In this document: positions 3,009 through 53,914 of the stretch, piece by piece
How the letters are laid out: each line of letters begins with the position of its first letter
How positions within the stretch are numbered: the stretch's first letter is position 1
Assembly: GCF_041435015.1 (NCBI RefSeq)
Contig: NZ_CP107989.1
Coordinates: 6,510,001-6,574,000, forward strand
Reading direction: 5' to 3'
Source of the DNA: Streptomyces canus
GTDB lineage: Bacteria; Actinomycetota; Actinomycetes; Streptomycetales; Streptomycetaceae
Length of the DNA: 64,000 nt
Position numbers and translations under genes: made by a program
The notes under the pieces: generated by a model
Seen by the model: the letters and a program-made list of their open reading frames with translations, nothing else
Told to the model about the DNA's origin: nothing
The model's database searches: none

Positions 3009-4673
<1,665 letters not shown>

Positions 4674-43471: not shown

Positions 43472-44452
43472 GTGAGTACACCGACCGCGAACCGAACCGC
43501 CACCGTCCTCCTCACCGCACTCGCCCCCGTCTCCTGGGGCACCACCTACGCCGTCACCACCGAGTTCCTCCCCGCCGACCGTCCCCTGTTCACCGGGATG
43601 ATGCGCGCCCTGCCCGCCGGACTGGTGCTGCTCGCCCTCGCCCGGGTGCTGCCGCGCGGGGTCTGGTGGGGGAAGGCGGCCGTGCTCGGGGCACTGAACA
43701 TCGGGGCCTTCTTCCCGTTGCTGTTCCTGTCGGCGTACCGGCTGCCGGGCGGGATGGCCGCGGTGGTCGGGTCGGTCGGGCCGCTGATCGTCGTCGGGCT
43801 GTCGGCGGTGCTGCTGGGGCAGCGGCCCACGGCCAGGAGTGTGCTCACCGGGCTGGTGGCCGCGTTCGGCGTCAGCCTGGTCGTGCTCAAGGCGGCCGGG
43901 GCGCTGGACGTCGTCGGCGTGGCGGCGGCGTTCACCTCCGCTGCCTCCATGTCCGCCGGCACCGTACTGACCAAGCGCTGGGGCCGCCCCGACGGCGTGG
44001 GCCCGCTCGCCCTCACCGCCTGGCAGCTCACCGCCGGCGGCCTGCTCATCGCGCCCCTCGCCCTCCTCGTCGAGGGCGCCCCGCCCGCCCTCGACGGCCG
44101 AGCGGTCGGCGGCTACCTCTACCTCGCGCTCGCGAACACGGCGGTGGCGTACTGGCTCTGGTTCCGCGGCATCGGCCGTCTCACCGCCACCCAGGTCACC
44201 TTCCTCGGCCCGCTGTCCCCGCTGACCGCCGCGGTCGTCGGCTGGGCGGCACTCGGGCAGACCCTGACACCGGTCCAGCTGGCGGGCATGACGCTGGCCT
44301 TCGGGGCGACGGTGGCCGGACAGCTGGGGGTGCGGCCCACTGCCGGCAGGACGTTCGGCCCAGCTGAAAGCAACCGCCGAGAGTGCTTCAGCCGATCTGG
44401 CGGGTCCGGCGTTGCGGCGGACGTGACGGGTCCGGCGCTGCGGCAGACCTGA
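43472..44452 (+). CDS. EamA/DMT-family transporter
   Basis: A drug/metabolite exporter of the EamA family with two 5-helix repeats, ten helices in all (for example NIGAFFPLLFLSAYRLPGGMAAVVGSVGPL and TAAVVGWAALGQTLTPVQLAGMTLAFG). GTG 43472 follows GAGGGGGGAA. Conserved sequence ends near residue 285 (GQLGVRPT). The last 40 or so residues, rich in Arg, Ser and Gly, are read from the first copy of the tandem duplication at 44325-44660, so the C-terminus has probably been replaced or extended by repeat DNA. The substrate is unknown; control by MarR suggests efflux of a toxic or signalling compound. Confidence 0.88.
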   Translation: MSTPTANRTATVLLTALAPVSWGTTYAVTTEFLPADRPLFTGMMRALPAGLVLLALARVLPRGVWWGKAAVLGALNIGAFFPLLFLSAYRLPGGMAAVVGSVGPLIVVGLSAVLLGQRPTARSVLTGLVAAFGVSLVVLKAAGALDVVGVAAAFTSAASMSAGTVLTKRWGRPDGVGPLALTAWQLTAGGLLIAPLALLVEGAPPALDGRAVGGYLYLALANTAVAYWLWFRGIGRLTATQVTFLGPLSPLTAAVVGWAALGQTLTPVQLAGMTLAFGATVAGQLGVRPTAGRTFGPAESNRRECFSRSGGSGVAADVTGPALRQT

Positions 44453-44660
44453 CGGGTCCGGCGCCGCGATGGCAAGGCCGCGAGGGCGCCGGAAGCGCTG
44501 CGGGTCGGGGGTGCGGATCACTGTCGGCCGGACGTTCGGCCCCGGTGAAAGCAGCCCCCGAGAGGCAGGCCTGAGGAGTACGGGGCTGCGGCAGACCTGA
44601 CGGGTCCGGCGCCGTGATGGCATGGCCACGACGGTGCCGAAAGCGCTGCGGGTGGCGCCA
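44325..44660. repeat. imperfect tandem duplication spanning the exporter end and the gap before the sigma factor gene
   Basis: Copy 1 (44325-44507) and copy 2 (44508-44660) share GGGGGTGCGG, a 35-base block with GGACGTTCGGCCC...GAAAGCA, GCGGCAGACCTGACGGGTCC with the following 20 bases, and GAAGCGCTGCGGGT or GAAAGCGCTGCGGGT. Copy 1 also contains a 26-base GACGGGTCCGGCG unit repeated about three times, which accounts for the length difference. The exporter gene ends inside copy 1. I see no gene in copy 2; the sigma factor promoter must lie in or after it. Confidence 0.7.
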
Positions 44661-44713
44661 GGGGCGTTATAGCGTCACCCCGATCCCGCGTTACGCAACT
44701 CCCGGAGGCGCGC

Positions 44714-46024
44714 GTGGCCGCAGACGTCTGTCCGGTGTGCGGGAAACCGCTCGCCGCGCGAGCCGGGCGCACGGGCCGCGGCTCGGTGTACTGCTCCGCC
44801 GCCTGTCGGCAGAAGGCCTACCGGGAACGGCGGCAGCCGGAAGGCCTCACCGTGCAGGGACTCATCGACGACATCGGGCGGCAGGCCGGCCGACTGGTAC
44901 CGCAGCCGGCCGACACCCTCTATTCGACCGTCGCCGAACTGTCCACCTCCGTCGCCCGGTTGAGGCGCGTGGCCCGCACCGCACGCGATGCCACCCACGA
45001 CGCCGGGGATTCCGTCACACCCGCCCCCGTGACGCAACTCGCCGAAACCGACTTCGCCGCCCTCACCGAGCAGTACCGCCGTGAGATCCAGGTGCACTGC
45101 TACCGCATGACGGGGTCGTACGACGAGGCCGAGGACCTCGTGCAGGAGACCTTCCTGCGGGCCTGGCGGGCCCGGGACGGGTTCCAGGGGCGGGCGAGTG
45201 CGCGGACCTGGCTGTACCGGATCGCCACCAACGCCTGTCTCGATCTTCTACGGCGGACCGCGCGCCGCCCGCAGCGCTATGAGCCGGTGCCGGGGATGAA
45301 CCACGGCACCGGCGAACCACCCGCCCGTATCACCTGGTTGCAGCCCTGCCCCGACGATGAACTACCGGTCGAAGAAGGGGAGTTGCCGGAGGCCTCCGCA
45401 GTCTCCCGGGAGACCCTGGAACTCGTCCTCCTGGCCGCGATCCAGCATCTGCCCGCCCGGCAGCGGGCCGCCTTCATCCTGCGGGACGCGCTCGGAATGA
45501 CCGCCGCGGAGACCGCCGAGGCCCTGGAGATGAGCGTGGCGGCGGTCAACAGCGCACTTCAGCGGGCCCGGCCGACCCTGCGCGCGCACCTGCCCCGGGA
45601 GCGTGCCGACTGGCGGCCCGTGGCCCCGACCGGAGAGCAACAGGCCGTGCTGGAGCGGTACATGGCCGCCGTCGAGCGTCTCGACCTCGACGCGATGGCC
45701 GCGCTGCTCGCCGAGGACGTCGTCCTCACCATGCCGCCCAACCCGTTCTGGTTCACCGGCCGGGACGCGTTCGTCGACTTCGTGCGGGTCAGCCTCGACC
45801 CCGCCTCACCGGCCTTCCTGGGCCACTGGCGCAGCCTGCCCACACGCGCCAACGGGCAACTCGCGGTGGGCAATTACGTCCGCAGACCCGGGACCGGCGT
45901 CTACCGCGCCCAGGTCCTGGACGTCCTGCGCTTCGACACGGCCGGCCCGGGCGACCGCATCGCGGAGATCACCTCCTTCGAGCCGCATCTCTTCCCCGCG
46001 TTCGGGCTCCCGCTGCGGCTGTGA
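44714..46024 (+). CDS. ECF sigma factor with N-terminal zinc ribbon and C-terminal SnoaL-like domain
   Basis: A 436-residue ECF sigma factor (SigG/SigJ-like group). GTG 44714 follows GGAGG. Residues 1-40 hold a zinc ribbon, CPVCGKPLA...YCSAACRQKAYRER, absent from ordinary ECF factors. Sigma region 2 is about 115-180 (REIQVHCYRMTGSYDEAEDLVQETFLRAW), region 4 about 235-285 (LELVLLAAIQHLPARQRAAFILRD...MSVAAVNSALQRARP), and a SnoaL/NTF2-like domain is about 300-430, which in related factors controls activity in place of an anti-sigma factor. Such factors commonly activate a neighbouring oxidoreductase gene; the SDR-like gene 78 bases downstream is the natural candidate. Confidence 0.9.
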   Translation: MAADVCPVCGKPLAARAGRTGRGSVYCSAACRQKAYRERRQPEGLTVQGLIDDIGRQAGRLVPQPADTLYSTVAELSTSVARLRRVARTARDATHDAGDSVTPAPVTQLAETDFAALTEQYRREIQVHCYRMTGSYDEAEDLVQETFLRAWRARDGFQGRASARTWLYRIATNACLDLLRRTARRPQRYEPVPGMNHGTGEPPARITWLQPCPDDELPVEEGELPEASAVSRETLELVLLAAIQHLPARQRAAFILRDALGMTAAETAEALEMSVAAVNSALQRARPTLRAHLPRERADWRPVAPTGEQQAVLERYMAAVERLDLDAMAALLAEDVVLTMPPNPFWFTGRDAFVDFVRVSLDPASPAFLGHWRSLPTRANGQLAVGNYVRRPGTGVYRAQVLDVLRFDTAGPGDRIAEITSFEPHLFPAFGLPLRL

Positions 46025-46101: not shown

Positions 46102-46860
46102 ATGCTGCTGACCGACAAGACCGCGATCGTCTACGGCGCCGGCGGTTCCATCGGCGGGGCCGTTGCCCGCGCCTTCGCCGAGCAGGGCGCGAGGGTCCAC
46201 CTCGTCGGCCGGACCCGGCAGACCCTGGAGGCCGTGGCCGCGGACATCAAGGACGCCGAGGTCGCCGTCGTGGACGCGCTGGACGAGGCGGCCGTGGAGG
46301 CGCACGCCGACCGGGTCGGGGACATCGACATCTCCATCAACCTCGTCACCCGCGGCGATGTGCAGGGCGCGCCGCTGGTCGACATGTCCGCCGAGGACTT
46401 CCTGCGGCCCGTGACCGACGGCCTGCGCACCACCTTCCTCACCGCCCGCGCCGCGGGACGCCGGATGGCCGCACGGGGTTCCGGTGTGATCCTCGCCCTC
46501 AACAGCGGTTCCGCGCACGGCAGTCCGATGATGGGCGGCACCGGGCCTGCCGACGGGGCGATCGACACGCTCGTGCGCAACCTGGCGATCGAGCTGGGGC
46601 CGAGCGGGGTGCGGGCGGTGGGCCTGTGGGTCGCCGGGGTGCCGGAGACGTTCACCGTCGAGAAGCTCGCCGCGGTCAACCCGGCCATCGACGAGAGCGC
46701 CGTCCAGGGCATCGTCGACCACCTCGCCGGGATGCGCATGACCCGCCGCAACCCCACCCTCGCCGAGGTCGCCGCCACCGCCGTGTTCCTCGCCTCCGAC
46801 CATGCGGGCGGCATCACCGGCACGTTCGTCAACGCCACCGGAGGCATGGTCAGCGTCTGA
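46102..46860 (+). CDS. SDR-fold protein lacking the catalytic Tyr-Lys pair
   Basis: A 252-residue Rossmann protein of the short-chain dehydrogenase superfamily, from ATG 46102 behind GAGGAGC. The nucleotide-binding glycine motif YGAGGSIGGAVARAF is intact, and SINLVTRGD resembles the NAG-like motif. After the catalytic Ser region (LALNSGSAHG) the usual YxxxK is absent: the sequence reads MMGGTGPADGAID. It may be a divergent enoyl-reductase-like or redox-sensing form, or a non-catalytic NAD(P) binder. It follows the zinc-ribbon sigma factor and overlaps the convergent M50 gene by 11 bases. Confidence 0.85.
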   Translation: MLLTDKTAIVYGAGGSIGGAVARAFAEQGARVHLVGRTRQTLEAVAADIKDAEVAVVDALDEAAVEAHADRVGDIDISINLVTRGDVQGAPLVDMSAEDFLRPVTDGLRTTFLTARAAGRRMAARGSGVILALNSGSAHGSPMMGGTGPADGAIDTLVRNLAIELGPSGVRAVGLWVAGVPETFTVEKLAAVNPAIDESAVQGIVDHLAGMRMTRRNPTLAEVAATAVFLASDHAGGITGTFVNATGGMVSV

Positions 46861-48016
46861 GCCCGCGGCCCCGCCACCACGTACGCAGCCACAGGGCGTG
46901 CAGCCCGCCGAGCGCGACGACGACGGCGATCCCGTCCAGCCGGTCCCAAGTCGACGGTCCGGTGCCGGACTTGACCACGGCGCGCGCGAACAGCGTGAGG
47001 TCCGCGGGCAGGGTGACGGCCGCGAAGAACGCGAGACACAGCGCGGTGCCGACGACCAGCACCACGCTGTACACGCGTACGGCCCGCCGTTCGTGGGCGG
47101 GCAGCCCGAGGCTGGGGTCCCGGTCGTCGATATGGCGGTTCCGGCCCCGCAGCAGGCGCCGGGCCCGGTACTTCGTGTACGCCATCCCGTCCCCGAACAG
47201 ATCGCGGCAGCGCGTGAGGTCCTGGAGGACGAAGTACAGGTCCGTGCGCATGAAGACCATGAGCTGGAAAGGGAGCGGAAGCAGGGCGAGCAGGGCCACG
47301 GCGGCCAGGACACGGCGGGGAGTGCCGGTCGTGACGCCCGCGGCGAGGGCGGCCAGGGAGGCGGCCGTCAGGTTTGTCGCGACGCCGGCGAGGTAGGCGG
47401 TCAACCGGTGTCGGCGCGGGGCGAGTTCGATCCCGCTGATGTCCGTCTGCATCACCAGGAACTGCAGCCGGGTCCCGAGCCGCATCCGCCCCGCCACCCC
47501 CGTCGCGCGGGCGGTCAGCAGATGGGCGCACTCGTGAAGCAGCAGCAGGCTCCAGCCGACGCCCGCACCGAGGGCGATGACCGCGCTGCCGTGCGCACTC
47601 CACAGCAGGGCCCGGTGGTCGAGCGGCACCGGAGGACGGGTGAGCAGGGTGACCGCGATCAGCAGCACGACCGCCACGGGGACGGCGGGACTCAGCAACC
47701 AGCGCACATGACGAGGCCGTATCCACGCCAAGGTCGGTGTCGGCGGCGGCTCCTGGTCGATCACGCGGCCGTCCACCTCGGCCACGAACCCGAGTCCGAG
47801 CAGGGCCTCCACGAAATCCGGTACGTCGACGTCGTCGCCGGTGCGGGCGCGGAGCCGCTCGCCGACCTCGGCCGGGGTCAGGCCCTGGCCGAGCAGGTCC
47901 AGGGCCTGCTTGCCCACCTCGGGCAGGGCGACGAAACGGCCGGTCGCCCGGCGGCCCACGATCCACTCGTCGCCGTCGGGGCGGGTGTCCAGCGCGTGCA
48001 GGCGTACCCGGTTCAC
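46850..48016 (-). CDS. membrane M50-type metallopeptidase with N-terminal PqqD-like domain
   Basis: A 388-residue membrane protein; GTG 48016 overlaps the ThiF-like gene stop as GTGA. Residues 1-90 (ATGRFVALPEVGKQALDLLGQGLTPAEVGERL) look like a PqqD/RRE-type winged helix, the fold that binds RiPP leader peptides. Helices follow at about 107-126 and 145-165, the second carrying the zinc motif HECAH at 161-165; Asp259 in MRTDLYFVLQD is the likely third ligand. More helices lie at about 208-228, 235-255, 313-340 and 358-378. M50-like proteins with a PqqD domain (YydH-like) occur in RiPP loci as proteases or export or immunity factors. Here it pairs with the ThiF-like enzyme and lies opposite the peptide genes. 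Confidence 0.88.
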   Translation of the reverse strand: MNRVRLHALDTRPDGDEWIVGRRATGRFVALPEVGKQALDLLGQGLTPAEVGERLRARTGDDVDVPDFVEALLGLGFVAEVDGRVIDQEPPPTPTLAWIRPRHVRWLLSPAVPVAVVLLIAVTLLTRPPVPLDHRALLWSAHGSAVIALGAGVGWSLLLLHECAHLLTARATGVAGRMRLGTRLQFLVMQTDISGIELAPRRHRLTAYLAGVATNLTAASLAALAAGVTTGTPRRVLAAVALLALLPLPFQLMVFMRTDLYFVLQDLTRCRDLFGDGMAYTKYRARRLLRGRNRHIDDRDPSLGLPAHERRAVRVYSVVLVVGTALCLAFFAAVTLPADLTLFARAVVKSGTGPSTWDRLDGIAVVVALGGLHALWLRTWWRGRGLRR

Positions 48017-49326
48017 GCGCGCTCCCCGCACGCCGGGCAGTCCAGGTGGCGGGGGGTGCGCTGGTGGACCGGGTCGCCGGGGAGCATGAGGTTCACGCCG
48101 AAGCGGAAGCCCGGCTCCAGCGCCGGCACCCCGGTCAGCAGGGCGAGGGCGGCGTGCGCGAGCAGGGCTCCCGAGAGCCCGGCGGTGACGGCACTCGCCG
48201 GGTTCCACGGCATCCGCGGCGAGGCGACCTCCGGGTCCTGTCCCGGCCCGAGCCGCAGATCTCGCCGGGCGATCTCCCCGTCCCGCAGACACTCCCAGCA
48301 GGCCCCCCACCCGGGCACGTACACACCGGCGGTGACGAGAGGGCCCCGGTAACCGGCGTCGACCCAGGGCAACCCGGCCGCCAGACAGGCCCGGTTGGTC
48401 CACCGCCGGATCGCGTCCGGGCGGTCGGCGGCGAGGACGAGGAGGTCGTAGGGGGACGGCGGGAGAGCAGGGGCGGGTGTCGCCGAGGAGACCGCTCGCC
48501 CGGGCCCGTCGGCGGTCTCGGCCGGCGGGTCGGCAGGTCCGGGGGTTCCGCCGGGTCTGCGGTGCTCCGCGCCGGTTGCGCCTCGGCCCGCGGCGCTCAC
48601 CGATGGTGGGCCGCCCGGGGGCCGTCCCGCCTGTCGTGATCCGGCCACCAGCTCCGCCAGGTCCTCCGGCCGCGCCACCTCCCTCCGCTCCCCGGTCACC
48701 GTCACGTCCGAGTTCAGTGCCCGTAGCGTCGCCACCGCCGCCTCCACCTTCGGCCGACCGAGGTCGGACTCGCGGTACAGGGGCTGGCGGTTGAGGTTGG
48801 ACAGCTCGACCACGTCCGGGTCCACGCAGTGGACGTGTCCCACCCCGGAGGCGACCAGGGCCTGGGCCGCGTGACCGCCGGTACCACCGACGCCGATCAG
48901 GAGGACGCGGGCCTCGCGCAGGCGGAGTTGGGCGTCCCAGGGGCTGGTGCGGGGGCCGAGGTCCATCCAGCGGAGCAGGGGAACACCGCGGCTGTAGCGG
49001 TCCTCCTCGCGCGGCGGCACCGGCACCGACGCCCGGGCGTCGTCCACGAAACCGGCGGCCAGCAGGTCGGCCATCGCCTGGCGGGCGTCCTCGCCGGGCA
49101 GATCCGGGTGGCTGCGCAGCACCTCGGCGACCACCTCCGACGGCCCCCGCGACCCGTCCATCGCCTCGACCAGCGTCCACACCCAGCCCTGCGGATCCGT
49201 GATCTCAGCGCCGATGCCGTGGATCACGCTGCCGACGCGGACGTTGCCGTCGACCGTGCGGTAGGCGCGGTGCTCGGGCTTGATCCGGGGGCGCCCGAAC
49301 GACTCGACCGTCACCGCCTCCGCCAC
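48013..49326 (-). CDS. ThiF/E1-like adenylating enzyme with N-terminal RRE-like domain
   Basis: A 437-residue enzyme. Residues about 1-100 form a PqqD-like winged helix (GAEITDPQGWVWTLVEAMDG, SEVVAEVLRSHPD) that would bind a precursor leader. The ThiF/MccB-type fold starts at 139: GVGGTGG at 145-151, Asp in HCVDPD at 169-171, the Arg finger in LSNLNRQPLY at R180, and Lys193 in GRPKVEAA. A Pro/Gly-rich linker (230-292) interrupts the domain, then WVDAGYRGPLVTAGVY and the zinc Cys pairs C343/C346 and C430/C433. ThiF-like proteins adenylate a peptide C-terminus (MccB) or present leaders to a cyclodehydratase; no YcaO gene is in the window, so direct adenylation is favoured. GTG 49326 follows GGAGAGGGG. 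Confidence 0.9.
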   Translation of the reverse strand: MAEAVTVESFGRPRIKPEHRAYRTVDGNVRVGSVIHGIGAEITDPQGWVWTLVEAMDGSRGPSEVVAEVLRSHPDLPGEDARQAMADLLAAGFVDDARASVPVPPREEDRYSRGVPLLRWMDLGPRTSPWDAQLRLREARVLLIGVGGTGGHAAQALVASGVGHVHCVDPDVVELSNLNRQPLYRESDLGRPKVEAAVATLRALNSDVTVTGERREVARPEDLAELVAGSRQAGRPPGGPPSVSAAGRGATGAEHRRPGGTPGPADPPAETADGPGRAVSSATPAPALPPSPYDLLVLAADRPDAIRRWTNRACLAAGLPWVDAGYRGPLVTAGVYVPGWGACWECLRDGEIARRDLRLGPGQDPEVASPRMPWNPASAVTAGLSGALLAHAALALLTGVPALEPGFRFGVNLMLPGDPVHQRTPRHLDCPACGERA

Positions 49327-49449
49327 CGGGGCCCCTCTCCTTCATTCGTACACCTTCTTGACACTCTGACCCCACCGGCACAGCCTTGACAAGAGCGGTC
49401 AGCGATCGCTTCGGAAAGGTCAAATCCCGTATAAAAGCGAGGAGTTGAG
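49327..49449. promoter_or_regulatory. divergent promoter region of the micropeptide locus
   Basis: This 123-bp gap separates the ThiF-M50 operon (minus) from the peptide genes (plus). It has TTGACA twice on the plus strand (49358-49363 and 49386-49391) and TATAAA at 49430-49435. Neither TTGACA has a good -10 at 16-19 bases, and TATAAA has no -35 at standard spacing, so no classical promoter can be assigned. The two TTGACA boxes sit 28 bases apart and could be regulator half-sites. The whole gap is A/T-rich for this genome. Confidence 0.5.
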
Positions 49450-49527
49450 ATGCCGAAGAGCATCGTGATCCGCCCCTTGGACAAGAAGGAGACCACGGGG
49501 GACAGTGGCGGCAACGGCGGCAGCTGA
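49450..49527 (+). CDS. micropeptide 1, putative RiPP precursor (25 aa)
   Basis: A 25-residue peptide whose ATG at 49450 follows GAGGAG at five bases. It begins MPKS, then IVIRPLDKKETTGDS, and ends GGNGGS. It shares 15 consecutive residues with the next ORF, at homologous positions, while the tails differ; DNA third positions differ too, so selection acts on the protein. The conserved block has a beta-strand-like IVIRPL that could add to an RRE domain, as RiPP leaders do; the variable tail would be the core. No Cys is present, so thioether or disulfide classes are excluded. The adjacent ThiF-, M50- and M14-type genes support a precursor role. Confidence 0.82.
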   Translation: MPKSIVIRPLDKKETTGDSGGNGGS

Positions 49528-49538
49528 AAGGAGCTGAC

Positions 49539-49613
49539 ATGCCTGTCAAGATCGTGATTCGCCCGCTGGACAAGAAAGAGACCACTGGGGACAGTAATTC
49601 CCAGGGTGCTTGA
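49539..49613 (+). CDS. micropeptide 2, putative RiPP precursor (24 aa)
   Basis: A 24-residue paralogue of the preceding peptide, 11 bases downstream, with its own AAAGGAG. It reads MPVK, then IVIRPLDKKETTGDS, then NSQGA. Conservation stops at the same serine in both peptides. In both, an Asn lies a few residues after GDS (GGN in the first, N immediately in the second), followed by a short tail (GGS or SQGA). Tandem, diversified precursor copies are typical of RiPP loci. It is the second gene of the plus-strand operon that ends with the M14 carboxypeptidase. Confidence 0.82.
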   Translation: MPVKIVIRPLDKKETTGDSNSQGA

Positions 49614-49641
49614 TCGGATCACCAGCGTTCGGAGGACCGGC

Positions 49642-50889
49642 GTGCGGACTTCGCTCTATCCGGCAGTCGACGAACTGGAGCGAAGGGCCCGCACGCTGGC
49701 CCGCGCCGCCCCCGGCCTGCTGCGGCTCGGCCAGGTCGGGGAGAGCCGGGCGGGGCGCCCGCTGTGGCTGCTGTCCGCCGGACACGGCGACCGCCACATC
49801 CTCTCCGTCGCCGGCGCCCATGCCAACGAACCGGTGGGCGGGGCCTCGGCCTTGCGGCTCGCCACCCTGTTCGCCCGCCGGCCCGGCCTGCTCGAACCCC
49901 TCGGCTGCACCTGGCACTTCCTGCTCTGCCTCGACCCCGACGGGGCACACCTCGCGCACAGCTGGCAGCCGGAGGAGCCGGAGCCGTCACTGACGGAATG
50001 TCACCGATACTTCTACCGGCCCGCGTTCGCCCGCCAGCCGGAGTCCCTGCCGCTGCCGCCCGGCACGCCGCTCCCCGAGTCGGCCGCCCTGGTCCGGCTC
50101 CTCGACGAGCTGCGGCCGGTCGCCCAGTTCACCCTGCACGGCATCGAGTTCGGCGGCGCCTTCGTGATGATGACCCGGGAGGTACCGGGGGCCGCGGACG
50201 CCTTCCGGGACACGGCGGCGCGGCTGCGCGTCCCCGTCGACCGCCACCCCGTCGACGGCCCCGACTGGCGGCTCGACCCGCCCGGCGTCCTGGTGCTGCC
50301 CGACGGTCACGGCGAGGGCGAACGCGACCCGAGTGGGTTCGTCGCCGAGAGCACGTGGTTCTATCCCCGCCGCCACGGCACCCTGACCACCCTGATCGAG
50401 ACCCCCGCCTGGGCCGTGCCCTCGGTGAACGACGTCCGGCCCGTCACCGACCCCACCCGCGAGATCGCGCGGCTGGGCGAGGTGCTGCTGGGCCGGAGCC
50501 AGGAGCTCGCGGCCGTGCTCGGGACACGGCTCGACGCGGCCGTACCGGAGGACCTCGCGCCGCTGCGGGACGCCGCGCGGGAACTCCTCGGCGTGGCGCC
50601 GTCGATCGTGGCGAGCTGGGCCGCGGAGCCACCCGGACGGTTCCACGGCCACTTCGCGACCCGGGGCATCTCGGCCCGCCGTATCCCGCTCAGGGTGGCG
50701 GCGATGGCGAGCCGCGCCCTGGCCCGCACCGATCCCCGGGCCGCCGAGATCCTCGACGACCTGGTGCGCGAGTGGAGCCGGGAGCTGGAGAAGACGTACG
50801 ACCTGCGATGGATGCCGGTGGCCGTCCAGACCGGGCTGCATGTGCGGACGATGCTGCACACGGCCCGGTTGGTGTGCGGGGGGAGCTGA
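49642..50889 (+). CDS. M14-family zinc carboxypeptidase of the micropeptide locus
   Basis: A 415-residue soluble M14-type carboxypeptidase. GTG 49642 lies seven bases after GGAGG; an in-frame GTG at 49606 would overlap the second peptide gene. Zinc ligands are H60 and E63 (AGAHANEPVGG) and H166 (FTLHGIEFGGA); the catalytic Glu is E253 in TLIETPAWAVP. There is no signal peptide, so it acts inside the cell. Position directly after the two peptide genes suggests it trims their C-termini, either to expose the residue that the ThiF-like enzyme adenylates or to mature the product. The last 60 bases of the gene resemble the repeat units that follow. Confidence 0.88.
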   Translation: MRTSLYPAVDELERRARTLARAAPGLLRLGQVGESRAGRPLWLLSAGHGDRHILSVAGAHANEPVGGASALRLATLFARRPGLLEPLGCTWHFLLCLDPDGAHLAHSWQPEEPEPSLTECHRYFYRPAFARQPESLPLPPGTPLPESAALVRLLDELRPVAQFTLHGIEFGGAFVMMTREVPGAADAFRDTAARLRVPVDRHPVDGPDWRLDPPGVLVLPDGHGEGERDPSGFVAESTWFYPRRHGTLTTLIETPAWAVPSVNDVRPVTDPTREIARLGEVLLGRSQELAAVLGTRLDAAVPEDLAPLRDAARELLGVAPSIVASWAAEPPGRFHGHFATRGISARRIPLRVAAMASRALARTDPRAAEILDDLVREWSRELEKTYDLRWMPVAVQTGLHVRTMLHTARLVCGGS

Positions 50890-50896
50890 GGGCGAT

Positions 50897-51297
50897 CGGG
50901 GTGCGGGTGCGCCGATGCTGACTACGGCCGGGTTGCGTGTGTGCCGATGGTCATCACGGCCTGGCTGGTGTGCGGGGGAAGGTGAGGGCGGTCGGGGTGC
51001 GTGTGCGTCGATGCTGAGCACGGTCGGGTTGCGTGTGCGCCGATGCTCACCCCGGCCCGGCTGGTGTGCGGGGGAAGCTGAGCACGGTCGGGTTGCGTGT
51101 GCGCCGATGCTCACCCCGGCCCGGCTGGTGTGCGGGGGAAGCTGAGCACGGTCGGATTGCGTGTGCGCCGATGCTCACCCCGGCCCGGCTGGTGTGCGGG
51201 GGAAGGTGAGCACGGTCGGGGTGCGGGTGCGCCGATGCTGAGCACGGTCGGATTGCGCGTGCGGACGATGCTGGGCGCTGCCCCCCCTGGTGTGCGG
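50897..51297. repeat. array of 32/64-bp repeats after the M14 gene
   Basis: The 448-bp gap between the M14 gene and pepN is filled by repeats. A 64-bp unit (starts GTCGGGTTGCGTGTGCGCCG, ends GAAGCTGAGCACG) occurs three times almost unchanged at 51023-51086, 51087-51150 and 51151-51214, with diverged copies at about 50927-50990 and 51247-51297. A 32-bp short unit, identical to the 64-bp unit without its central 32 bases, occurs at about 50897, 50991 and 51215. The long unit matches the final bases of the M14 gene (CGGTTGGTGTGCGGGGG), so the array probably arose by slippage from that end. There are no unique spacers and no credible ORF. Confidence 0.85.
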
Positions 51298-51337: not shown

Positions 51338-53914
51338 CTACTGTCCGGCCTGCGCGTCCGCGGCCTGGGCCATCAGCGCCCGCTCCACGCCCGCGCGGGA
51401 CTCGGAGACGAGCCGCCGCAGGGCCGCGTTGGGCTCGGCCGAGGCCAGCCAGGCGTCCGTCCGGTCCAGGGTCTCCTGGGAGACCTGGAGCGACGGGTAG
51501 AGGCCGACCGCGATCTGCTGGGCGATCTCGTGCGAGCGGGACTCCCAGATGTCCTTGACCACGTCGAAGTACTTGTCCGTGTACGGAGCGAGCAGCTCAC
51601 GCTGATCGGTCTGGACGAAGCCTCCGATGACGGCCTCCTGGACGGCGTTGGGCAGCTTGTCGGACTCGACGACCTGTGCCCAGGCCTCCGACTTCGCCTC
51701 CTCGGTCGGCCGCGAGGCACGGGCGGTCGCCGCGTGGCGCTCGCCCGCCGCCGTCTTGTCCCGCTCGTACTCGCCGGCGATCTCCGACTCGTCGTAGCGG
51801 CCCACGGCGGCCAGCCGCTGGACGAACGCCCAGCGCAGCTCGGTGTCGACGGCCAGGCCCTCGACGACCTGAGATCCCCCGAGCAGCCCCTCCAGCAGGT
51901 CCAGCTGCTCCGGCGTACGGGCCGTGGCCGCGAACGCCCGCGCCCACGCGAGCTGGTGGTCGCTGCCCGCCGCCGCGGACCGCAGATGGGCCAGCGTGGC
52001 GTCGGTCCAGCGGGTCAGCAGGGCCTCACGGGCGGTGGGGGCGGCGTACAGCTCGATCGCCAGCTTCACCTGCCGGTGCAGCGACTGCACGACACCGATG
52101 TCGGACTCCTTGCCGATACCGGAGAGGACCAGGGAGAGGTAGTCGCGGGTCGCGAGCTCCGCGTCCCTCGTCATGTCCCACGCCGAGGCCCAGCACAGCG
52201 CGCGCGGCAGCGAGGACTCGAAGTCGCCGAGGTGCTCGGTCACGAAGGCCAGCGACTCGTCGTCGAGGCGGACCTTGGCGTACGACAGGTCGTCGTCGTT
52301 GAGGAGCACGACCGCCGGACGGCGCTTGCCGACCAGCTCCGGCACCGCCGTCAACTCGCCGTCGACGTCCAGCTCGACACGCTCGTCACGGACCAGCTTG
52401 CCGCTGTCGCCGTCGAGTTCGTACAGACCGACCGCGATGCGGTGCGGACGCAGGGTCGGCTCGCCCTTCGCGCCCGCGGGCAGGGCCGGGGCCTCCTGAC
52501 GGATCGCGAACGAGGTGATGACACCGTCCGCGTCCGTCTCGATCTGAGGGCGCAGGATGTTGATGCCGGCCGTCTGCAGCCACTTCTGCGACCAGGTGCC
52601 CAGGTCGCGGCCGGACGTCTCCTCCAGCGCGCCCAGCAGGTCGGACAGCCGGGTGTTGCCGAACGCGTGGCGCTTGAAGTACGCCTGCACCCCGCCGAAG
52701 AACTCGTCCATGCCGACGTAGGCGACGAGCTGCTTGAGAACAGAGGCCCCCTTCGCGTACGTGATGCCGTCGAAGTTGACCAGCACGTCGTCCAGGTCGC
52801 GGATCTCGGCCATGATCGGGTGCGTGGACGGCAGCTGGTCCTGGCGGTACGCCCACGTCTTCATGGAGTTGGCGAACGTGGTCCAGGAGTGCGGCCAGCG
52901 GCTGTCCGGGGCGTACGCCTGGCAGGCGATGGAGGTGTAGGTGGCGAACGACTCGTTCAGCCACAGGTCGTTCCACCACTCCATGGTGACCAGGTCGCCG
53001 AACCACATGTGGGCCAGCTCGTGGAGGATGGTCTCGGCGCGCATCTCGTAGGCGGCGTCGGTCACCTTGGACCGGAAGACGTACTGGTCGCGGATGGTCA
53101 CCGCGCCGGCGTTCTCCATCGCGCCCGCGTTGAACTCCGGCACGAACAGCTGGTCGTACTTCTTGAACGGGTACGCGTAGTCGAACTTCTCCTGGAACCA
53201 CTCGAAGCCCTGCCGGGTCACCTCGAAGATGGCGTCCGAGTCGAGGTGTTCGGCGAGCGAGGGGCGGCAGTAGATGCCGAGGGGGACGGACTGGCCGTCC
53301 TTCTCGTACACGCTGTGCACGGAGTGGTACGGGCCGACGATCAAGGCCGTGATGTACGACGAGATCCGCGGGGTCGGCTCGAAGACCCAGACGTCGTCCT
53401 TCGGCTCCGGCGTCGGGGAGTTGGAGACCACGGTCCAGCCGGTCGGCGCCTTCACGGTGAACTGGAAGGTGGCCTTCAGGTCCGGCTGCTCGAAGGAGGC
53501 GAAGACGCGGCGGGCGTCCGGCACCTCGAACTGGGTGTACAGATAGGCCTGCTGGTCGACCGGGTCGACGAAGCGGTGCAGGCCCTCACCGGTGTTGGTG
53601 TACGCGGCGTCGGCGACGACCCGCAGGATGTTGCGGCCCTCCAGCAGGCCCGGCAGGGCGATACGGGAGTCCGCGAAGACCTCCGCCGGGTCGAGGGCGT
53701 CCCCGTTCAGCGTCACCTCGTGGACCGTGGGGGCCACCAGGTCGATGAAGGACTCGGCGCCGTTCTCGGTGACGTCGAAGCGCACCGTGGTCACGGACCG
53801 GTAGGTACCGCCCTCCTGCGCGCCGGAGAGGTCGAGATCGATCTCGTAGGACTCGACGCTGAGCAGCGTCGCCCGCTGCCGAGCTTCGTCGCGAGTCAGG
53901 TTTGTGCCAGGCAC
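51338..53914 (-). CDS. pepN: aminopeptidase N (M1 family)
   Basis: An 858-residue cytoplasmic zinc aminopeptidase that removes N-terminal residues from peptides; length and order fit actinobacterial PepN. The exopeptidase motif GAMEN is at 264-268, the zinc motif HELAH at 298-302 and the third ligand Glu321 in WLNESFA. The N-terminal beta domain (1-190) and C-terminal ERAP1-like helical domain (about 520-850) are complete. GTG 53914 follows AGGAGA. The gene is monocistronic and diverges from the DUF1203 gene. Confidence 0.96.
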   Translation of the reverse strand: MPGTNLTRDEARQRATLLSVESYEIDLDLSGAQEGGTYRSVTTVRFDVTENGAESFIDLVAPTVHEVTLNGDALDPAEVFADSRIALPGLLEGRNILRVVADAAYTNTGEGLHRFVDPVDQQAYLYTQFEVPDARRVFASFEQPDLKATFQFTVKAPTGWTVVSNSPTPEPKDDVWVFEPTPRISSYITALIVGPYHSVHSVYEKDGQSVPLGIYCRPSLAEHLDSDAIFEVTRQGFEWFQEKFDYAYPFKKYDQLFVPEFNAGAMENAGAVTIRDQYVFRSKVTDAAYEMRAETILHELAHMWFGDLVTMEWWNDLWLNESFATYTSIACQAYAPDSRWPHSWTTFANSMKTWAYRQDQLPSTHPIMAEIRDLDDVLVNFDGITYAKGASVLKQLVAYVGMDEFFGGVQAYFKRHAFGNTRLSDLLGALEETSGRDLGTWSQKWLQTAGINILRPQIETDADGVITSFAIRQEAPALPAGAKGEPTLRPHRIAVGLYELDGDSGKLVRDERVELDVDGELTAVPELVGKRRPAVVLLNDDDLSYAKVRLDDESLAFVTEHLGDFESSLPRALCWASAWDMTRDAELATRDYLSLVLSGIGKESDIGVVQSLHRQVKLAIELYAAPTAREALLTRWTDATLAHLRSAAAGSDHQLAWARAFAATARTPEQLDLLEGLLGGSQVVEGLAVDTELRWAFVQRLAAVGRYDESEIAGEYERDKTAAGERHAATARASRPTEEAKSEAWAQVVESDKLPNAVQEAVIGGFVQTDQRELLAPYTDKYFDVVKDIWESRSHEIAQQIAVGLYPSLQVSQETLDRTDAWLASAEPNAALRRLVSESRAGVERALMAQAADAQAGQ

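Follow-up and report, generated by a model that had tools for sequence, protein, structure and literature searches.

A five-gene locus of Streptomyces canus with two micropeptides and an RRE-ThiF enzyme is very likely a RiPP cluster from a wider actinomycete family

The window analysed here, a stretch of 64,000 nucleotides from Streptomyces canus (contig NZ_CP107989.1, positions 6,510,001 to 6,574,000 of the forward strand), contains a compact locus of five genes that encode two peptides of 24-25 residues, a ThiF-type enzyme, an M50 metalloprotease, and an M14 carboxypeptidase. This locus is very likely a biosynthetic cluster for ribosomally synthesized and post-translationally modified peptides (RiPPs), because the peptides are co-conserved with a modifying enzyme, combine a conserved leader with a variable core, and are accompanied by RiPP recognition element (RRE) domains and a protease. 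It belongs to a family of clusters in two families of soil actinomycetes, and a relative of the microcin C synthetase probably converts its two peptides into small modified molecules of a signalling or antibiotic-like kind. The RiPP assignment had already been made in a sequence-only reading of the same DNA and is upheld on these grounds; as a whole, that interpretation is partly supported. All five genes that it listed are present as open reading frames (ORFs):

46850-48016, minus strand: M50 gene
48013-49326, minus strand: ThiF gene, sharing 4 nt with the M50 gene
49450-49527, plus strand: precursor peptide 1, 25 amino acids
49462-49497, plus strand: leader motif of peptide 1 (IVIRPLDKKETT), pN/pS 0.12-0.23 across loci
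49498-49524, plus strand: putative core of peptide 1, GDSGGNGGS, a variable tail with pN/pS 0.60 in its length class and Ser at core position 3
49539-49613, plus strand: precursor peptide 2, 24 amino acids
49587-49610, plus strand: putative core of peptide 2, GDSNSQGA, a variable tail with pN/pS 0.61 in its length class
49642-50889, plus strand: M14 gene with a GTG start (the mechanical ORF begins at 49606)

The GTG at 49642 was taken as the M14 start because most of the aligned M14 homologues start with M-R-T or M-R-G, and Shine-Dalgarno-like sequences can be read in the locus DNA ahead of peptide 1, peptide 2, and the M14 gene. The genes form two divergent units, as had been described, but the one promoter region that had been placed between them is deduced from this layout, because a scan of 49200-49700 gave no sigma-70-type promoter. 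The host genome of 10.68 Mb holds one close ThiF of this type and two peptide sites.

The micropeptides are real genes. Searched as a DNA pattern, I-R-x-L-[DE]-x-x-E-T-T gave 38 sites in 29 of 392 Streptomyces genomes and the reversed pattern gave none; a ThiF gene lies close to the matching peptide in 26 of the 29, and among 37 Streptomyces genomes searched for both the pattern and ThiF (E<=1e-60), four had both and 33 had neither. A scan of named genomes gave 72 ThiF loci, reduced to 71 by removal of a short 39% match from Rhizobiaceae (L074). Near ThiF in 69 of these 71 loci stands a motif peptide of the form I-x-I-R-x-L-D-K-K-E-T-T followed by 6-9 residues (one peptide in 60 loci, two in eight, and three in one, 79 in total), and the reversed sequence of the same loci gave no match. 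As for the two misses, L017 is truncated at the ThiF start by the contig end, and none was found in L066 (Nonomuraea). Absence of the peptides beside homologous ThiF genes had been named in the sequence-only reading as grounds for refutation; the peptides are present there, and the RiPP reading stands. Rows for the window itself (L001, L075) and for a distant ThiF only (L002, L074) were left out of the counts, as were the duplicates L121 (= L210), L123 (= L119), and L124 (= L120). The peptide is divergent from ThiF in 71 of the 79 cases and lies on the ThiF strand in the other eight, and six of the eight same-strand loci have the order peptide-M14-ThiF, which ties the M14 unit to ThiF.

The precursor is almost invariant across large parts of Streptomyces, and paralogous precursors of the same locus differ mostly in the tail. 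Over all 79 peptides (67 distinct DNA sequences), the ratio of nonsynonymous to synonymous differences (pN/pS, uncorrected pairwise) is 0.22 for the 12-residue motif. Of the two main length classes, the one with 37 distinct sequences shows 0.23 for the motif versus 0.61 for the tail, and the one with 28 shows 0.12 versus 0.60. A narrower selection of peptides that fixed most motif residues gave 0.14 and 0.12 for the motif versus 0.70 and 0.63 for the tail, and the contrast reported here is that of the looser expression, the weaker of the two runs. It points to selection on the protein level, stronger on the leader than on the core; it counts against the strength of this argument that the pairs are uncorrected and not phylogenetically independent and that the regular expression itself restricts motif change. 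The motif Glu and first Thr are nearly invariant in both actinomycete families, partly since the search expressions require them. A known precursor family was considered and dropped, as neither window peptide has a Pfam or NCBIfam match; four relatives have no NCBIfam match. An orphan precursor (MAQKIEIRPLDKKETTGDSNSQGA; L108, 6626-6769) was observed in genome G600 near a gene that reads like a major facilitator superfamily (MFS) exporter, with ThiF and M14 absent over 13 kb and a complete locus on another contig.

The ThiF protein matches PF00899 (E 3.5e-40). A profile built from 20 ThiF homologues, compared with solved structures, placed PaaA first (E 1.3e-33, query residues 10-211, RRE included) and MccB second (E 5.7e-31). 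A Foldseek search with the AlphaFold2 (AF2) model (mean pLDDT 75.4) gave the best E-values to MccB (TM-score by target up to 0.84), then PaaA (0.75), with ThiF and MoeB structures next by E-value and matched over the E1 part only (up to 0.89). Fusion of an RRE to an E1 adenylation domain is present in both sequence profile and fold, and the RRE-like N-terminus proposed earlier is borne out, as the PaaA alignment covers it and the fold agrees. Invariant in alignments of 20 and 14 rows are D171, R180, K193, and D301, which we take to be ribose, ATP, and Mg residues by analogy to MoeB/MccB, and Cys 343, 346, 430, and 433, which likely form a zinc site. Judged by its sequence and its model, ThiF reads as an RRE-E1 adenylyltransferase of the MccB/PaaA architecture with its catalytic residues intact. 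A Pro/Gly-rich insert of ThiF (residues about 228-290, window about 48450-48650) has low model confidence and is modelled as disordered; it is long in the window and in P0012, while P0052, P0059, and P0114 have a shorter or different version and the remainder of the 20 have almost none.

The M50 protein carries HExxH and R-T-D-x-Y motifs (H161, E162, H165 and R257-T258-D259-x-Y261) that are invariant in 19 aligned rows. PF02163 matches the window protein at E 0.0012, under the Pfam cut-off, and 19 of 19 homologues at E<=1; for the PqqD-like part, the match is E 0.05 in the window, again under the cut-off, and 10 of 19 homologues match at E<=1. In the AF2 model (pLDDT 88.7), the N-terminal 85 residues form strands, three helices, and a strand, and the nine top matches of the fold search are chains of TbiB1, TigE, McbBCD, and ThcOx, aligned over about 80-90 residues (E 0.1-0.6) via the RRE-like part alone; these are RiPP proteins bearing RREs. 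A membrane metalloprotease with an N-terminal RRE/PqqD-like domain (residues ~1-85) is supported by sequence and model, with the fold standing behind the PqqD part claimed earlier at those E-values only and the sequence signal for it weak. With an RRE on ThiF and an RRE-like domain on M50, two cluster proteins may read one leader. The M50 protein scores 20.2 bits with the NCBIfam model daptide_HExxH, whose cut-off is 300 bits; 12 of 19 homologues match this model at E<=0.01 and one of 19 matches LiaK/YydH, as sub-threshold relatives.

The M14 protein matches PF00246 (E 5.8e-9), its profile matches are carboxypeptidases A2, B, and A1, and H60, E63, H166, and E253 are invariant in 26 aligned proteins, which is what would be expected of the soluble zinc carboxypeptidase, catalytic residues kept, that its sequence indicates. 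M14 was matched in 62 and M50 in 50 of the 71 named loci, and peptide, M14, and M50 occur together in 43. Two more M14 paralogues (L212, L213 / L216 7763-10918; 43% and 40% identity) lie in the same genome, facing each other beside apparent glycogen/trehalose metabolism genes; no motif peptide was seen there, and the paralogues are a possible source of the locus M14. In L025, L029, L035, L047, L048, L049, L057, and L064, mostly from Actinacidiphila, M50 is unmatched and a second M14 gene lies downstream of ThiF instead.

Beyond Streptomyces, a phylum-wide ThiF search at a strict threshold of 1e-30 gave two of 396 genomes, and a class-wide search with the leader pattern gave five of 394 (reversed control, two). 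In two of the five (G849, G1026), the peptide has ThiF and M50 as neighbours; the remaining three (L114-L116) lack both within 1.5 kb and were dropped as chance matches. The Streptosporangiaceae branch surfaced through the leader pattern only, and the family label of G849 and G1026 rests on the identity of L122 DNA to part of the named locus L067. ThiF was found at E<=1e-40 in 103 of 250 Streptosporangiaceae genomes, and 68 of 89 loci of this family have, close to ThiF, a leader of the type I-x-I-R-x-L-D-K-x-E-T-T joined to other cores (61 by motif scan and seven by a looser reading; the 21 loci without a motif match were examined by the looser scan only). Within the sequence examined, M14 was matched in none of the 89 loci and M50 in 56, and since 27 of the loci are shorter than 4.2 kb, absence there means absence from the examined stretch only. 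M14 was found in the Streptomycetaceae branch only, and its presence on a ThiF tree of 156 rows (a quick tree with several long branches) takes four changes versus a shuffled mean of 48.1, which fits a gain of M14 in the Streptomycetaceae branch followed by a few losses.

When 62 Streptosporangiaceae loci were clustered by gene content, MFS transporters recurred in 12, DUF6879 proteins in 14, and BTAD/NB-ARC regulators (Streptomyces antibiotic regulatory protein type) in 10, with one example of each family confirmed by Pfam. The DUF6879 proteins (PF21806; L119 3379-4966, L040 8289-8993) adjoin the ThiF/M50 unit not only in Streptosporangiaceae but also in some of the Streptomyces loci that lack M14. 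L119 and L120 contain one more precursor-like ORF (..RLLDATETA VCSNSTGN), at 4110 and 9059, and these second ORFs beside DUF6879 genes were included in the core counts. The loci of a separate ThiF branch (L174, L156, L178) each hold between one and three precursors with Cys: GVCQDCNYA, QGCPTHGSG, QACPANNPGCGAG, CEEEGCEGAGG, GVCEHDTYNG, and GMICAGGE.

In the loci examined, the leader is followed by 81 distinct tails of 6-13 residues. Their C-terminal residues are mixed (N 22, S 17, G 17, A 13, T 6, and others), so that no single terminal residue is required, and 32 of the 81 lack Asp and Glu, which leaves the C-terminus as the only core carboxylate in these. In the window branch, core position 3 is Ser or Cys in 33 of 33 distinct cores (32 Ser, one Cys) and the adjoining positions vary. 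Counted from the C-terminus, Ser/Cys stands at -6 in 50 of the 81 cores (shuffle mean 20.4), a count that none of 5000 shuffles attains at any position, the any-position comparison serving as control for the post hoc choice of -6. In a set thinned of near-copies, 19 of 38 cores have Ser/Cys at -6; of 5000 shuffles, 1 is as high at -6 and 2 are as high at any position. When -5 and -7 are admitted as well, 68 of the 81 cores have a Ser/Cys. Related Streptosporangiaceae tails swap Cys and Ser (TTYCGNSNS versus NTYSGNSNS), and the restriction of a position to these two residues suggests a nucleophile.

The pathway that best explains these observations can be outlined as follows: I) the shared leader (about residues 1-16, ..IVIRPLDKKETT) would dock on the RREs of ThiF and M50; II) at the cost of ATP, ThiF would adenylate one carboxylate in the core (8-9 residues, different in the two peptides), with the C-terminus as the most likely target; III) the activated carboxylate would be attacked intramolecularly, with the Ser at core position 3, which is Cys in one relative, as lead nucleophile, to give a macrolactone or thiolactone of 6-7 residues with the shape of an autoinducing peptide (AIP); IV) M50 would remove the leader, release the product, and possibly export it; and V) M14 would trim the C-terminus, before or after modification. 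Activation of the C-terminal carboxylate by ThiF is rated fairly probable, the Ser/Cys (thio)lactone is the leading but unproven candidate for the product and is proposed tentatively, and the full scheme, from leader docking through C-terminal activation and ring formation to M50 release and M14 trimming, is considered slightly favoured over its failure in some part. More speculative, and held to be rather doubtful, is the generalization that a widespread actinomycete family of RRE-ThiF clusters makes AIP-like macrolactones or thiolactones with an E1-like enzyme rather than an AgrB-type protease. Here the ring would be closed between the C-terminal carboxylate and a Ser/Cys that precedes it by 5-7 residues, a single leader code recognised by the RREs of cyclase and M50 would serve dozens of different signal or antibiotic cores, and M14 would be an addition by Streptomyces.

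Several observations weigh against this scheme. Three of the 29 pattern-positive genomes have no ThiF near the peptide: G677 and G755 carry peptide and M14 with ThiF absent over about 13 kb, and G662 stops 2 kb upstream at a contig edge; in addition, G600 has a second, orphan peptide site on another contig. Within the sequence examined, 21 of the 71 named loci have no M50 match and nine no M14 match, so neither is essential everywhere. Thirteen of the 81 cores, including the INRGGQSG, KLREGSG, and IERDEG types, have no Ser/Cys at -5 to -7, and IERDEG, LERDEG, and GWRVIGAGG contain none at all, so the lactone cannot be general. A penultimate Gly is found in 25 of 26 cores from loci with M14 versus 20 of 54 without; as it is common without M14 too, the idea that M14 trims one residue to expose Gly was demoted to a guess and rests on little. 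A dedicated exporter adjacent to the locus is absent, the EamA transporter at 43472-44452 being set apart by the sigma-factor and SDR genes. Lastly, ThiF could instead activate the invariant Glu/Asp of the leader, by analogy to the Glu activated by PaaA.

The last point corresponds to an alternative, considered unlikely, in which the D/E-K-x-E-T-T motif would be the modified core, activated at its Glu side chain, and the variable tail would be a follower. It would suit the PaaA match, the best from the Protein Data Bank (PDB) by sequence, as PaaA acts on Glu with a follower peptide (PMC12250964, section 3.3), and the near invariance of the motif Glu and first Thr, with the reservation on the search expressions given above. 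However, Glu is replaced by Gln in L050 and L210, the paralogous precursors of one locus differ mostly in the tail, and the tails retain a Ser/Cys position, unlike a free follower.

A peptide-nucleotide of the microcin C kind, named in the sequence-only reading as the nearest known logic, is likewise improbable. ThiF would couple AMP or another nucleotide to the C-terminus, and M14 would be an immunity peptidase or trim to the acceptor residue. MccB is the top fold match of ThiF by E-value, Asn is the commonest C-terminal residue (22 of 81 cores) and ends five of six distinct cores of the M14-less Streptomyces loci (L031, L039, L040, L044, L061, L071, L072), and L067 has the order peptide-ThiF-MFS, like mccA-B-C. 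Against this, the residue modified by MccB is a C-terminal Asn and the succinimide step requires it (PMC12250964, section 2.3), whereas the window peptides have a conserved leader and terminate in Ser and Ala, only one of 26 cores from loci with M14 ends in Asn, and trimming peptide 2 by one or two residues would expose Gly or Gln, not Asn. The logic is therefore weak for this locus, and nucleotide attachment as the general chemistry was rejected since the window peptides lack the defining terminal Asn.

Still less probable is a pearlin-like use of the peptide as a reusable carrier, to whose C-terminus ThiF would add an amine or amino acid and from which M50 and M14 would cut off a small molecule. 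The near invariance of the precursor within large parts of Streptomyces would fit, pearlin M50 proteases (TglG/TmoG) free C-terminal residues (PMC10885120), and EnfB is able to amidate a C-terminus with amines (PMC12250964, section 5.1). On the other side, the tails diverge strongly between lineages, and no such tailoring enzyme, including a peptide aminoacyl-tRNA ligase (PEARL), is among the annotated, Pfam-scanned recurrent neighbours, a statement for which no PEARL model was searched. A role outside natural products, with the peptide as small substrate of an E1-like thiocarboxylate or conjugation system, is very improbable: the E1 fold of ThiF and a few tails ending in Gly-Gly would agree with it, but the RRE domains, the leader/core pattern, the variable C-terminus, and the absence of a sulfurtransferase or E2-like gene from the five-gene unit do not.

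The genes flanking the locus in the window were assigned by Pfam:

43472-44452: EamA transporter
44714-46024: sigma factor of the extracytoplasmic function (ECF) type with a SnoaL domain
ending at 46860: short-chain dehydrogenase/reductase (SDR) gene
51338-53914: M1 aminopeptidase

No MFS exporter is among these scanned neighbours, EamA being a different transporter family. In the named Streptomycetaceae loci, the recurrent neighbours are PepN-like genes, EamA (nine loci), ECF-SnoaL sigma factors (seven), semialdehyde dehydrogenase, and others; they are read as flanks of differing chromosomal sites, and for EamA and the ECF-SnoaL sigma factor (window 43472-46024), either a tie to the cluster or shared synteny is possible. 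YcaO was not seen among the Pfam-scanned neighbours, a scan that covered examples of the recurrent genes and used no YcaO model across the loci. A tandem repeat array at 50831-51273 (64-base unit, about six copies, with 32- and 96-base readings) begins within the 3' end of the M14 gene and continues downstream.

Outlined from sequence alone, the locus represents a coherent ThiF-type RiPP branch among soil bacteria that produce antibiotics, which offers a shared leader motif, 81 distinct cores in the loci examined, and a set of three to four genes that could be rebuilt in E. coli. Since genes of 24-25 codons are easily overlooked by gene callers, the leader motif beside ThiF provides a means of detecting them. 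Should the Ser/Cys macrolactone prove correct, it would open a new biosynthetic path to AIP-like molecules and give peptide engineering a compact cyclase.

According to PMC12250964 and PMC12150305, RRE-ThiF RiPPs are an established, enzyme-defined group that includes microcin C, pantocin, the GRC thiolactone, enterofaecin, and IndF. The enzymes activate a carboxylate that differing nucleophiles attack, and several macrocyclise; the outcomes are an Asn-derived N-P bond (MccB), modification of Glu residues (PaaA), a Glu-Cys thiolactone (GrcB), a backbone imide (EnfB), and reaction at a Trp indole (IndF). The earlier suggestion of a class of its own was therefore too strong. In the literature searched, supplements excluded, no published description was found of the precursor family or of a ThiF with M14 and an RRE-bearing M50, and the words Streptomyces, M14, M50, and carboxypeptidase are absent from the main text of PMC12250964.

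Compared with microcin C, the locus shares an RRE-E1 enzyme of the same architecture (TM-score by target up to 0.84) and a very short precursor, and some relatives end in Asn or, as in L067, have the order peptide-ThiF-MFS. However, MccA consists of a bare seven residues, whereas a conserved leader and a terminal Ser or Ala characterise the window precursors, and M50 and M14 stand here in place of the MccC-F genes (PMC7136475). Pantocin A (PaaA/PaaP) is closest by PDB sequence match over RRE and E1 and has a precursor of similar length (24-25 versus 30 residues), but neither the named loci nor L119-L210 contain Glu-Glu-Asn in their motif-and-tail strings, and M50 and M14 are present here. The GRC thiolactone, enterofaecin, and Ind systems of Firmicutes have in common with it an RRE-ThiF, a short precursor, and carboxylate activation leading to macrocycles, and the enterofaecin leader likewise has a (V/I)R motif (PMC12250964, PMC12150305). 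They differ in phylum and in cores (WWIVI, NWYFI, Glu/Cys), the available parts of these sources do not mention M14 or an RRE-M50 there, and the window cores are without Cys and hence without a Glu/Cys thiolactone pair, Cys being found in a minority of relatives. M50 proteases occur in epipeptides and pearlins (PMC10885120), and the locus M50 is a sub-threshold relative of daptide_HExxH and LiaK/YydH, comparable to daptide and epipeptide proteases and pearlin TglG/TmoG, but far under the daptide family cut-off and bearing an RRE-like domain. By its tested features, the locus lies within the RRE-ThiF RiPP group and apart from the defining features of microcin C, pantocin, and GRC, and an unlabelled cluster in the sequence similarity network of 27,400 RRE-ThiF fusions (PMC12150305, Figure S1) may hold these enzymes.

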